Below the pieces are notes generated by a model, which was not told where the DNA came from, ran no database searches, and saw nothing but the letters and a program-made list of their open reading frames with translations. 64,000 bases of DNA from Aquificaceae bacterium (GTDB lineage: Bacteria > Aquificota > Aquificia > Aquificales > Aquificaceae). Positions 25,822-38,524 of this stretch are shown piece after piece. How positions within the stretch are numbered: position 1 is the stretch's first letter; every line of letters begins with the position of its first letter. The DNA is taken from assembly GCA_026981975.1 (NCBI GenBank), contig JALSHV010000011.1:1-64000 (forward strand), read 5' to 3'. The translations under genes and the position numbers were made by a program.

Positions 25822-25898
25822 GGGCCCGTAGCTCAGCTGGACAGAGCAGGGGATTTCTAATCCCCAGGTCGGAGGTTCGAGTCCTCCCGGGCCCGCCA
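25822..25898 (+). tRNA. tRNA-Arg (anticodon UCU), probable phage integration target
   Basis: Acceptor GGGCCCG pairs with CGGGCCC. The anticodon stem GGGGA/TCCCC holds TTTCTAA (anticodon TCT), and the T-stem GGAGG/CCTCC holds TTCGAGT. The 3' CCA is encoded (25896-25898). A tyrosine integrase gene lies 140 bases downstream, pointing towards the tRNA, the usual arrangement for integration into a tRNA 3' end. Confidence 0.97.
25871..25898 (+). other. Candidate attachment site (attL core) in the tRNA-Arg 3' end
   Basis: The T-arm and acceptor 3' half of tRNA-Arg are the likely core, because the integrase gene follows immediately and no phage gene lies on the other side. The matching direct repeat at the far end of the prophage is outside the window, so the exact core cannot be read. 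Confidence 0.5.
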
Positions 25899-32133: not shown

Positions 32134-33773
32134 GAAACAGTCCTGTAATTCGTGTGCCTAACAGTCGGGTTGTGGTTCTTAGGGAGGATCTTATTAGTGC
32201 TTGCGATGGGGCTTTGGAAACAGCCGTTTTTATATCCCTTCTTGAGTACTGGACCACCGTCAAGCGAAGGATGAAAAATCAGATAGAGCATGAAAACAAA
32301 GCCCGGGAGCAGGAAGGTCTTCCCCCCCTTCCTCTTGATGAAGAAGACTTTGAGTGGGTGTATAAAACATACGAAGAATGGATTGAGGAGAGCCTCGGAC
32401 TTCTGACACGGCACTCTTTGAAAAAAGCTATCAGACACGCCCAGGAACTCGGGTTTGTATCTATACGCAGAAATCCGAAGTATCGGTGGGATAAGACGCA
32501 CCAGTACCGTCTGAACGTTGATGCTCTGAATAGGAAACTTGAAGAGGTGGTTCAAACCCTTGAAACACATGATAGGTCGTCAGCGACCTATCGTAAGAAC
32601 GAATTCGTCCTATCGGAAAGCAGAAATCGTCCTATGGAAGGGTTGAATTCGTCCTATGGAAAGGTCAAAACCGACCCAGCAATACCAGAGATTACTATAC
32701 AGAGATTACATACAGAGAAAGAGAATATAGAAAGGGAAGATACTTACGTATCTTCCGATACCCTTGAAAGGGTATCATCCAATAATACCCACCCTCCCAC
32801 CCCCGGCAACCATACAGACTCACAAAGTAGTTCCTCCTATGTAGAGGAGACAACCAGTAAAGAAGGGGGCGGGGTGCGGGACCCGGTTTTCGACGGACTC
32901 ATTGAAGTGCTCCAGGGAAAAACCTCAAGGCTTACTGAGTGGGTTGAAGCTGTTGAAGAGATTCACAGTAAGGTGGGATGGGATGAGAGAGCTAACCGGT
33001 ATCTCGGAGAGCTTATAGAGAAAACCTTTATTACCCCTAAGCGTCTGCTTTCTGTTCTGAACGGCAGGTCCGGGGAGATAGCGAAGAAGTATGGAACGCA
33101 TCACTGTCTGAAGCTTATTCTTGACAGGGTTAATACAGCTGTTGAGTCCGGGGACAGGAAAACGAAAACCCTTATAGGAGAGTTAACTCTCAAGAACCAC
33201 AGGAAGCTTGAGCTTGACCCTAAGGTGGTGTACGACGTGTATGTTGCAGCTGTGGAGAGGTTTCCGGAATTCCGCCCTATCCCGTGGTCAGAGACCCTCA
33301 GGAGGCGGATCCTGGAGATAATGAAGAGGTCAGCGAGGTTCAGGGATATTGGTTTTTGGGAAAAGCTTTTCAGAAAAGCCCGCGATTATGTAGCTTATTT
33401 GAGTGAGCGGAAGAAAGGGGAGCAAACGAGGGATCTCTTCTGGATACTGAACGACAAGGTTTTTGAGTGGATAGAAGCTGATACGAGAAAGGAATTTGCG
33501 ATTGTGACTATTAAGCTGGGTGAGAAGTTCATCAACGACCTTAAAGAACGTCTTGAGGAGCAGGTTCTTGAAGTATTGAAAAAGGACATGTTTGCCAGCG
33601 TGGCCAGCTACTCAAAGAACGGGGATGGTCTTTTGCTGTCTGCGTGGAAGCCCTCTCCTTTAGTGCAAGCTTTGGACAAGGCTGGCAGTGTTGAGCGATT
33701 TCTTGAAGTGTTTTACAGACCTGAGTATGTTCAAAGGATTTTTAAGGAGGTAAAGAAAGATGGGGAAACTTGA
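32130..33773 (+). CDS. Phage replication-organiser-like protein
   Basis: 547 residues. The N terminus (1-130) reads as a winged-helix DNA-binding domain (GALETAVFISLLEYWTTVKRR, YEEWIEESLGLLTRHSLKKAIRHAQELGFVSI), typical of phage replisome organisers and DnaD-like initiators. A low-complexity, Ser/Thr-rich linker (about 180-260) leads to a helical C-terminal half. Its place just before the DnaB helicase supports a role in origin recognition or helicase loading. No DnaD signature was certain. Confidence 0.7.
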   Translation: MRNSPVIRVPNSRVVVLREDLISACDGALETAVFISLLEYWTTVKRRMKNQIEHENKAREQEGLPPLPLDEEDFEWVYKTYEEWIEESLGLLTRHSLKKAIRHAQELGFVSIRRNPKYRWDKTHQYRLNVDALNRKLEEVVQTLETHDRSSATYRKNEFVLSESRNRPMEGLNSSYGKVKTDPAIPEITIQRLHTEKENIEREDTYVSSDTLERVSSNNTHPPTPGNHTDSQSSSSYVEETTSKEGGGVRDPVFDGLIEVLQGKTSRLTEWVEAVEEIHSKVGWDERANRYLGELIEKTFITPKRLLSVLNGRSGEIAKKYGTHHCLKLILDRVNTAVESGDRKTKTLIGELTLKNHRKLELDPKVVYDVYVAAVERFPEFRPIPWSETLRRRILEIMKRSARFRDIGFWEKLFRKARDYVAYLSERKKGEQTRDLFWILNDKVFEWIEADTRKEFAIVTIKLGEKFINDLKERLEEQVLEVLKKDMFASVASYSKNGDGLLLSAWKPSPLVQALDKAGSVERFLEVFYRPEYVQRIFKEVKKDGET

Positions 33774-33939
33774 ATTCAAGAAATTGATCAAAACGCTTAA
33801 GAGGATCTGGGAAGCGTTACCAAAAAACTGGGACTTTACTGCACAGCAACGGATTTGGCGAAGAAGATATGAGAATTACATAAGAATGTTAGAAAAAAGC
33901 GAGGGAGAAAAAAGTAGAAAAGCAAGTCAAGGGAACTGA
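33760..33939 (+). CDS. Small basic protein, unknown
   Basis: 59 residues, with aromatic and basic content (WEALPKNWDFTAQQRIWRRRY). It starts inside the previous gene (14-base overlap) 9 bases after AAGGAGG and stops one base before the next ATG. Good translation signals support it. The function is not recognised. Confidence 0.6.
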   Translation: MGKLEFKKLIKTLKRIWEALPKNWDFTAQQRIWRRRYENYIRMLEKSEGEKSRKASQGN

Positions 33940-33940
33940 T

Positions 33941-34111
33941 ATGAGAGACAGGAATGCTGGGAAGGTAACGCTTTTCCATGTGTGTATGGGTGGTGCTGAG
34001 CATAGAGCCTTCCGGTTTTTTGATGACAAAGCTCTGAACCTTTTAGTAGCAGCGTCCATGCTTGAGAGCGAAACGAGATGTATGGTAGCAGGGCGTGGGA
34101 GTATGCTCTAA
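33941..34111 (+). pseudogene. N-terminal fragment of the TGT/DpdA-like gene
   Basis: 56 codons beginning with KVTLFHVCMGGAEHRAF, which looks like the start of a transglycosylase-like barrel (a beta strand followed by a gene-family HxxxG/GxEH-type turn). The frame ends at 34111, just where the next reading frame, one base out of phase, takes over. Adding one base in the overlap (34066-34108) would join the two into one protein of about 280 residues. It may be a frameshift mutation, a sequence error or two separately translated pieces. Confidence 0.5.
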
Positions 34112-34776
34112 ATCCTGAAAAGGTCCTTGAAATCCAGCTGCAGATAGATCCTGATGTGATAGCTCACGTTGATATACCCTGCGAGATAGAAATACTCCGT
34201 AGACTCGGAACGAATAGACCGACTGCTATCTCCCAGACTGTCTACAATGCTCTCTGGATAGTTGAGAAGAAAGAGTCTGGAGACGAAAGATTAAAGAACC
34301 GAATAGTTGTTATTGGAGTTCAGGGATATACGAAGGAAGATTACGGGCGTTGCTTAGAGCAGTATCGGAATTTCGGCTTTTTTGATCTGGATCCTGCAAA
34401 GTACTGGTTTGCGATTGGTAGCGTTTGTATGAGAAAGCCTCCTGAGCTTTACAGGATAGTTGAATTTGTGAGGGCAAGCATTCCTGATGAGTATCATGTC
34501 CACTGCTATGGTATAGCTAACCCCGTGTGGGTTCTGGAGCTCGGGAGATTTGGAGTTAATTCTGTTGACAGTGCAACAGGGACCTATGCGGCTGGAATGT
34601 TTCGTTTTATAGATGTAGGAGGGCAACGGAAAATACTCAAACTGAAAAGGAAGAACAAGTATATGTTCGCTGCTCTTACGGCTTTTAATTGGATGAGTCT
34701 TGAGATCCAGATAGAGGATGGAGTACAGGTTGAACAACAGCACCTTTTTGCAGATTGTGAGGTGTGCTGGAGATGA
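34078..34776 (+). CDS. tRNA-guanine-transglycosylase-like (DpdA-like) protein, main part
   Basis: 232 residues of a TGT-superfamily barrel: VLEIQLQIDPDVIAHVDIPCEI, VVIGVQGYTKEDYGRCLEQYRNFGF, WFAIGSVCMRKPP, HVHCYGIANPVWVLEL and GVNSVDSATGTY. The Asp of VDSAT sits where TGT has its nucleophile. In phages this family (DpdA) puts 7-deazaguanines into DNA. The N-terminal strand and the DSGA-type motif are missing from this frame and seem to lie in the upstream fragment. No queC/D/E genes are in the window. It overlaps dnaB as ATGA. Confidence 0.65.
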   Translation: MYGSRAWEYALNPEKVLEIQLQIDPDVIAHVDIPCEIEILRRLGTNRPTAISQTVYNALWIVEKKESGDERLKNRIVVIGVQGYTKEDYGRCLEQYRNFGFFDLDPAKYWFAIGSVCMRKPPELYRIVEFVRASIPDEYHVHCYGIANPVWVLELGRFGVNSVDSATGTYAAGMFRFIDVGGQRKILKLKRKNKYMFAALTAFNWMSLEIQIEDGVQVEQQHLFADCEVCWR

Positions 34777-36134
34777 TAGAGCTGAAGCCTTCTTATGATG
34801 AGTCAGCTGAGAGAGCTGTTCTCGGAACGATGCTTGCAGATCCTGAGAGTATACCCACCGTTGTTGAATACCTTTCTGAAGAAGACTTTTACTTAGAGGA
34901 ACACAGGCTTCTTTTCAGCATAATACTTAAGCTCTGGCAGGAGCACGGTACCAATTGGGATGAAATAGTCCTGCGCGATCGCTTAAAGAAGGAAGGTTTA
35001 GAGGAAAGGCTTCCTTTTGATTGGATAATAGGTGTATTTGAAGAGGCAGCCCCTTTGAAAACTTTAGAAACAGCGTGTAATGTTGTGAAGGAGCATTCTG
35101 ATAAGAGGAAGCTTGGAGACATTATTCTCAAGTCAGTTGCCAGCCTAAAGAAGGGAGTGCCGTCTGCGGAAATTATCAGAAGTGTACTTGACAGCTTTCT
35201 GAAGGTTGCAGGAGACCTTGAATCAATATATGATAAGGCTAAGATAGTGAGGCTTGTATCTGAGTACGTTGAGGAGGCAAGGAACAGAACTTCCTTTTAC
35301 ACGGGAATCCCTTCTGGTTTTGATGTGATAGATGAAGCGACGAACGGTTTTAGGGGAGGGGAGATGATTGTCGTGGGAGCAAGACCAGGGGTTGGGAAAA
35401 CCACATTCCTTGTGACTCTTCTTGAAAATTTCAGGTTACAGGGAAAGAAGGTGGCGTTTTTCTCTTTGGAGATGCCTCCTATAGCTTTGGGTTTGAAGAT
35501 CGCTTCTATGGTAACAGGGATTTCTTTTGAGAAGCTTTTGTCCGGGTACTTTACGGATGAAGAGTATGATTCTTTTCTTGAGAAGCTTGTAGCATACGCC
35601 AAGGATGAAACTCCTGTATACATAGATTTCCGGAAACACAATCATCGCAGTCTCCTTGCGGCTCTTTATTTCCTCAAGAAAAAGGCGGATATTGATATCG
35701 TGATGATTGATTACTTCCAGCTTGTAGATGTGAAACCCGGCAGGGGAGAGAGTATGAAGGATGCATATTCAAAGCTCAGTACAGATCTTAAGAACCTGGC
35801 AAAACAGCTGGACATTCCTATCATCGTAGCTTCTCAGCTGAAGAGGGAAGCGGAGAAGAAAGACAAACCTCCGACGATAGGAGACTTGAAGGAAACTGGA
35901 CAGCTTGAACAGGATGCTGATCAGATATTCCTGATGTGGAGGAATGATAAGAATGAAGAGGTGGTGAACGTTAGACTTGCAAAGAACAGGCTTCTGGGGA
36001 AGACGGTCAAGTTTGAGCTTGAATTTGATAAGAGCACTCACAGCTACCGGATCAAAGGACGAGAATCTGTGTTGAAAAACGAAACCTATCATAATGGAGA
36101 GTTTTCCAATGATTGGGAGGAAATACCTTTTTAA
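34773..36134 (+). CDS. dnaB: Phage replicative DNA helicase, DnaB type
   Basis: Hexameric 5'-3' helicase. N-terminal domain ESAERAVLGTMLAD..IPTVVEYLSEEDFYLEEHRLLF; C-terminal RecA-like domain with P-loop GARPGVGKTTFLVTLL, DIVMIDYFQLV (Walker B), IPIIVASQLKREAEK and LKETGQLEQDADQIFLMWR. I chose the ATG at 34773 (453 residues), which overlaps the upstream stop; a GTG at 34764 is possible. The family is intact, so the phage brings its own helicase besides the host's. Confidence 0.95.
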   Translation: MIELKPSYDESAERAVLGTMLADPESIPTVVEYLSEEDFYLEEHRLLFSIILKLWQEHGTNWDEIVLRDRLKKEGLEERLPFDWIIGVFEEAAPLKTLETACNVVKEHSDKRKLGDIILKSVASLKKGVPSAEIIRSVLDSFLKVAGDLESIYDKAKIVRLVSEYVEEARNRTSFYTGIPSGFDVIDEATNGFRGGEMIVVGARPGVGKTTFLVTLLENFRLQGKKVAFFSLEMPPIALGLKIASMVTGISFEKLLSGYFTDEEYDSFLEKLVAYAKDETPVYIDFRKHNHRSLLAALYFLKKKADIDIVMIDYFQLVDVKPGRGESMKDAYSKLSTDLKNLAKQLDIPIIVASQLKREAEKKDKPPTIGDLKETGQLEQDADQIFLMWRNDKNEEVVNVRLAKNRLLGKTVKFELEFDKSTHSYRIKGRESVLKNETYHNGEFSNDWEEIPF

Positions 36135-37617: not shown

Positions 37618-37731
37618 ATGCTTGCAACACGAAAGGCGGAAGGCTTTTGGATGGTAAAGAGTGGAACGATATGCCTTTCAATGCGGGGGTTGTTGGATGA
37701 TAGTGGTGTTGGTCAGCGGCGGAAAGGATAG
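37618..37731 (+). CDS. Possible 37-residue leader ORF
   Basis: An ATG directly after the previous stop, 6 bases behind AGGAGG, opens a 37-codon frame that runs into the next gene in another phase. The signals are good but the product is unremarkable. It may serve to couple translation into the PAPS-reductase-like gene, whose own start has a poor ribosome site. Confidence 0.3.
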   Translation: MLATRKAEGFWMVKSGTICLSMRGLLDDSGVGQRRKG

Positions 37732-38524
37732 CACCGCCTCACTTGTATTAGCGTTAGAAGAATTTGGTAATAGAGAGGTTATTGGTATATTTACCGACAC
37801 GGGTTGGGAGGCGGAATGTACTTACAGGTATCTGGATTACTTAGAGAATAAGCTCGGAGTTAGGATCCTCAGGCTCAGGAATGAACGATGGAACGGACTG
37901 CTGGATCTAATTGAAAAGAAAAAAAGGTTTCCTTCAGCTCTTTTCCGGTTCTGCACTGCCCACTTTAAAATAGTTCCTGTTGCGGAATTTCTTGCAAACA
38001 CAGACATACCGATAAAAGAAATTTGGATCGGTATAAGACGGGATGAAAGCCGTTCAAGGAAAAAAAGGTACTCAGCGTATTTAAGTGATGCGACTTATGA
38101 TTACCATGAGTGGCTTTCTTCTGTTTCCGGTGGTGATGTCAGGAAGGCAATTATTGAGAGAATAAAGGAAAAGAACATCAAAATCAGATTTCCCATTTTA
38201 GACTGGAGCTCGGAGGATGTCCTTACCTTTCTTGCAAGGAGAGGAATAACCCTTAATCCGTTATATTTGCGGGGACACAGGAGGGTTGGGTGTTACCCAT
38301 GTGTCTTGGGAAGTTTGAATGAGTTCAGGCTTTGCTGGAAAGACGAGGAAGGGAAAAGAAACATTATTCGGTTTGCGGAGGTAGAGAACAGATTGAGGTC
38401 CAGAGGCTACATGGCAAGACTAAAAGACGGTATGACTGCTAAGCAATTGATAAAGAGGCTTGAACAACAGGATCTACAGCTGGACATGTTTTGTGAGGAA
38501 AGCTGTGAAATTTGCAGAATATAA
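37697..38524 (+). CDS. PAPS-reductase-family protein (N-type ATP pyrophosphatase)
   Basis: 275 residues. The PP-loop SGGKDS is at residues 7-12, with IFTDTGWEAE, FCTAHFKIVPV and WIGIRRDESRSR in the middle, and Cys motifs late in the chain (GCYPC and CEESCEIC), which could hold an Fe-S cluster. The family adenylates a substrate and then reduces or sulfurates it; phage and island members (IbrA, DndC) often go with ParB-like or DNA-modification genes, and a ParB-like gene lies at 47 kb here. I chose ATG 37697 over a GTG at 37661. Confidence 0.82.
   Translation: MIVVLVSGGKDSTASLVLALEEFGNREVIGIFTDTGWEAECTYRYLDYLENKLGVRILRLRNERWNGLLDLIEKKKRFPSALFRFCTAHFKIVPVAEFLANTDIPIKEIWIGIRRDESRSRKKRYSAYLSDATYDYHEWLSSVSGGDVRKAIIERIKEKNIKIRFPILDWSSEDVLTFLARRGITLNPLYLRGHRRVGCYPCVLGSLNEFRLCWKDEEGKRNIIRFAEVENRLRSRGYMARLKDGMTAKQLIKRLEQQDLQLDMFCEESCEICRI

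Follow-up and report, generated by a model that had tools for sequence, protein, structure and literature searches.

A phage DpdA/TGT-like gene probably inactivated by a recent 79-bp deletion in a prophage of an Aquificaceae bacterium

The window (the whole stretch of DNA analysed, 64,000 nucleotides at positions 1 to 64,000 of contig JALSHV010000011.1 from an Aquificaceae bacterium, GenBank assembly GCA_026981975.1) carries a DpdA/TGT-like gene split over two reading frames. Judging by the surrounding genes, it is part of the replication block of a myovirus-like prophage, temperate and contractile-tailed, that is inserted in a tRNA-Arg gene. The features needed for what follows are these:

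25822-25898: tRNA-Arg gene, bounding the prophage on the left
25850-25895, forward strand: left attachment core, formed by the 3' part of the tRNA-Arg gene, with an exact 46-bp repeat on another contig (G000:C17:5602-5647)
26038-27066, reverse strand: gene of the tyrosine-type phage integrase family (phrog_1, E 9.4e-73), at the left prophage end
33941-34111, forward strand: 5' fragment of the dpdA/TGT-like gene, homologous over 33968-34081, its final codons out of frame and followed by a stop
34082-34083, forward strand: deletion junction, 2 nt in place of the 81 nt (codons 40-66, including the DSG motif) of intact homologues
34078-34776, forward strand: 3' fragment or main frame, homologous over 34084-34758, which keeps the region of the second catalytic aspartate (VDSA) and lacks the DSG segment
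37661-38524, forward strand: intact PAPS-reductase-like (PP-loop) gene, whose homologue adjoins the intact dpdA-like gene in a related genome (G056)

The integrase gene is followed by genes for a CII-like protein, a CI-like repressor, a RecT-like protein, an SNF2-type helicase and a replication initiator-like protein, and then by the broken gene; downstream of it lie genes for a DnaB-like helicase and the PAPS-reductase-like protein, succeeded by those for terminase, portal, head protease, major head protein and tail sheath. The prophage extends past the contig end at 73,923, and its GC content is 45.7% as against 37.9% in the flanking chromosome. The host is a heat-loving bacterium, for which gene content points to the Aquificaceae. 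The remainder of the contig shows no direct repeat (14 bases or more) of the tRNA region, and the repeat at C17:5602-5647 is in all likelihood attR, the right-hand attachment site. Additionally, the prophage DnaB-like helicase (34764-36134, forward strand) shares 71% identity with the host chromosomal DnaB (L002:312-1706, reverse strand) over the N-terminal domain (residues 1-110), but for the linker the figure is 14% and for the C-terminal ATPase domain 38%, and the match between the two genes at the DNA level is confined to approximately 190 bp of the N-terminal part. The phage helicase thus looks like a chimera with a captured host N-terminal domain, which perhaps recruits the host primase.

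As described in the initial annotation, the locus contains two forward open reading frames, 33941-34111 (56 aa) and 34078-34776 (232 aa), which lie in different frames and overlap by 34 nt. Since the two align with consecutive stretches of a single intact homologue, they are pieces of one gene. Intact homologues, which that annotation had proposed to look for in relatives, do exist: among 101 genomes of the class, two hold close relatives, one from a different genus within the host's family (G056; 67% identity, an open frame of 297 aa at L013:9938-10831) and one from the host's own genus (G091; 41% identity, 286 aa at L014:6203-7063). A profile search with these two proteins against 136 genomes of the phylum recovered no further relatives. 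The window protein, the two-homologue alignment and the junction sequence each found no match among the viral contigs searched, nor did a search of genome contigs for the gene, and these sets contain no near-identical phage. The match on contig C13 in the first DNA search proved to be the host dnaB, which is unrelated to the TGT-like gene.

When the intact G056 protein is searched against the window's genome, its residues 2-39 align with 33968-34081 (74% identity, E 1.7e-11) and its residues 67-282 with 34084-34731 (67% identity, E 1.3e-104), breakpoints that are identical in the profile search. Residues 40-66 of the homologue (27 codons, 81 nt) thus face 2 nt in the window, a net loss of 79 nt that accounts for the shift in frame. 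A DNA alignment agrees with the breakpoints on both sides of the gap, although the exact placement of the gap in it is noisy. The breakpoints may slide by a few bases. Apart from this loss, neither fragment contains a stop or a further change of frame. The missing peptide had no match anywhere in the window's assembly, whereas in a positive control the same query recovered its own source genome (E 8.3e-21); the segment has therefore not moved within the assembled sequence, and its relocation elsewhere in the genome is rejected at the sensitivity of this peptide search.

The lost residues include the DSG motif (D56-S57-G58 in the numbering of the G056 homologue). In the TGT family, the aspartate of this motif serves in general acid/base catalysis and in substrate binding. 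In the comparison, 8/8 intact homologues have an invariant DSG (those of G056 and G091, of the archaeal virus vir519, of three mycobacteriophage groups, Edugator/Marshawn, Suffolk and Phrappuccino, and of Streptomyces phage Gilgamesh), and in the family profile it aligns with the DSGG of six cellular TGTs from the class (hhalign, E 2.6e-5). In agreement with the earlier statement that the break falls at the DSG region and that the main frame lacks the motif, no DSG was found in any forward frame of 33701-34900. A second invariant Asp-Ser (D228 in the intact homologue) is retained in the main frame of the window as VDSA; the D228 region probably corresponds to the TGT nucleophile, the local profile alignment with TGTs stopping before the D228 column. 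The main frame alone, or the two frames joined in any way, would nevertheless lack the first aspartate together with part of the presumed TIM barrel, which points to a loss of enzyme activity. An active enzyme made of two pieces, as had been considered, is consequently unlikely, since the segment with the general acid/base aspartate is present in neither piece.

The window gene is best seen as a phage DpdA/TGT-like family member that has been inactivated. The main frame scores 42.5 bits against the Pfam TGT model PF01702, above its cut-off of 26.3, and the two intact homologues score 43.7 and 35.3 bits; the short upstream frame alone matches no family. Against the Pfam DpdA model PF23859 (cut-off 27), the main frame reaches 23.8 bits and the G091 protein 25.3, both below threshold, while the G056 protein has no match at E 0.01. 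The best PHROG for the window piece and for both intact homologues is PHROG 1279 (phrog_1279, 'queuine tRNA-ribosyltransferase'), a match that is partial and distant (E 1e-7 to 1e-9), and searches of the PDB by sequence returned only chance matches to repeat proteins, or none. Like bacterial TGTs, the window main frame exceeds the PF01702 cut-off and the family DSG aligns with the TGT DSGG; unlike them, the intact Aquificota proteins are approximately 80 residues shorter and lack the zinc-type cysteine motif, and the window gene sits in a phage replication block in a host that has its own full-length tgt.

There is also a likeness to phage DpdA proteins (DNA guanine transglycosylases), above all to their third group ('DpdA only'), defined by the absence of preQ0 genes (Hutinet et al., 2019, PMC6884629). 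As in that group, a TGT-like protein is encoded in a phage without preQ0 genes nearby and the host carries QueC and QueD-like genes; moreover, vir519 connects the family with annotated proteins of mycobacteriophages and streptomycete phages, and the DSG and second Asp are conserved in intact relatives. It differs in that the window copy has lost both the DSG and the frame, that the Aquificota members (23.8-25.3 bits) stay below the Pfam DpdA cut-off of 27, and that these members lack the C-terminal Cys/His cluster of the actinophage proteins. At the aligned place, this putative zinc-site cluster is absent from the G056 and G091 proteins and from the window, and the two intact Aquificota proteins (L013:9938-10831 and L014:6203-7063) may represent a zinc-free branch. 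No TGT-like gene was found in the literature on Aquificae viruses.

Compared with the G056 gene, the two fragments show pS values of 0.94 and 0.84, near saturation, and pN values of 0.17 and 0.22, although most of this divergence predates the deletion, so that these values do not measure present selection. This pattern suggests that protein-level selection acted on the gene until recently. Since constraint is kept in both fragments and no further stops have accumulated, either the deletion is young or it is an artefact, and we infer that it is recent. The second option, an error of sequencing or assembly or a minority variant picked by the assembler, with a phage gene that is really intact, is unlikely, even if it survives better than the other alternatives. 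It gains some plausibility from the draft state of the assembly (29 contigs), the good preservation of the rest of the gene and the apparently intact neighbours, dnaB and the PAPS-reductase-like gene; however, a clean loss of 79 nt in otherwise unique sequence is unlike the usual short-read error, there is no repeat at the junction that could have collapsed, and the missing peptide occurs on no other contig.

Considerably less probable is a natural short form, in which the 232-aa product starting at 34078 would be functional without DSG, for example as a binding or regulatory subunit. The main frame is indeed open over 232 codons and keeps the region of the second catalytic aspartate along with other family residues. 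Yet each of the eight intact homologues begins further upstream and contains the DSG segment, none having been found that begins at the position of 34078, an observation that would have told against a broken gene in the initial annotation; in addition, the sequence offers no obvious ribosome-binding site before the ATG at 34078, and the shift in frame places this codon within the upstream reading frame. As the constraint measured dates mostly from before the deletion, it is just conceivable that the fragments have kept some role. As for the proposal that one added base, or the undoing of a four-base loss, would complete the protein, or that a programmed frame shift yields the full enzyme, its probability is negligible: the two frames are consecutive and overlap by 34 nt, but the lesion measures 79 nt rather than 1 or 4, and with 27 codons missing, including the DSG common to all intact homologues, neither slippage nor the correction of a one-base sequence error could restore an active enzyme.

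The best explanation, in which we place high confidence, is therefore that a phage DpdA/TGT-like base-exchange gene was inactivated by a recent 79-bp deletion in a prophage of an Aquificaceae-type bacterium, and the original suggestion of a TGT/DpdA-like phage gene, probably a mutated modification gene, was right. The host encodes tgt on contig C7, QueC on C14 and PTPS/QueD-like proteins on C9 and C24, whereas searches for QueC and PTPS gave no match at the cut-off on the prophage contig, and the phage shows no preQ0 pathway. Given this distribution, the intact ancestor can probably be assigned to the 'DpdA-only' phage class. Its enzyme would most likely have replaced guanine in phage DNA by a 7-deazaguanine derived from the host queuosine pathway, and the modified base may have protected the phage DNA against restriction; that it acted on DNA rather than on tRNA is suggested by family and context. 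Of two members of the third group that were assayed, Salmonella phage 7-11 contained a trace of dADG, and Mycobacterium phage Orion contained no 7-deazaguanine in its DNA despite the presence of DpdA (Hutinet et al., 2019, PMC6884629), so that DNA modification is a prediction even for intact relatives. In the window prophage, the enzyme would have been lost through the 79-bp deletion, which took 27 codons with the DSG and left the remainder out of frame, and what can still be translated would be a 56-aa stub and, if an internal start at 34078 were used, a 232-aa protein that has no active site. In a prophage under repressor control, the loss of such a gene would presumably cost the host little.

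A PAPS-reductase-like gene recurs near the TGT-like gene: the two share a region of the window, are direct neighbours in G056 and, in Streptomyces phage Gilgamesh, lie two genes apart. Most phage PAPS matches lie in other phages. PAPS-reductase-like loci are found at 37661-38524 in the window, at L013:9122-9937 and at L022:1-494, and the Aquificota proteins have a Cys-rich C-terminal tail of the CEExCEICR type. An obligate functional pair is rejected, as G091 has only the TGT-like gene and G047 only the PAPS-like one, and many phages likewise have one but not the other. It is a highly speculative idea, with little probability attached, that in Aquificaceae phages the DpdA-like enzyme and the PAPS-reductase-like PP-loop protein together make an undescribed, further-changed 7-deazaguanine, for which the window prophage would be a natural loss mutant.

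Altogether, what could have been a recoding event or a hidden two-piece enzyme appears to be a plain deletion in a prophage gene. The window gene itself would represent ordinary gene decay, in which a phage enzyme of a known kind was disrupted not long ago. More broadly, DpdA/TGT-like genes do occur in phages of Aquificaceae-type bacteria, and their intact Aquificaceae homologues, which are probably heat-stable, are open to biochemical testing.
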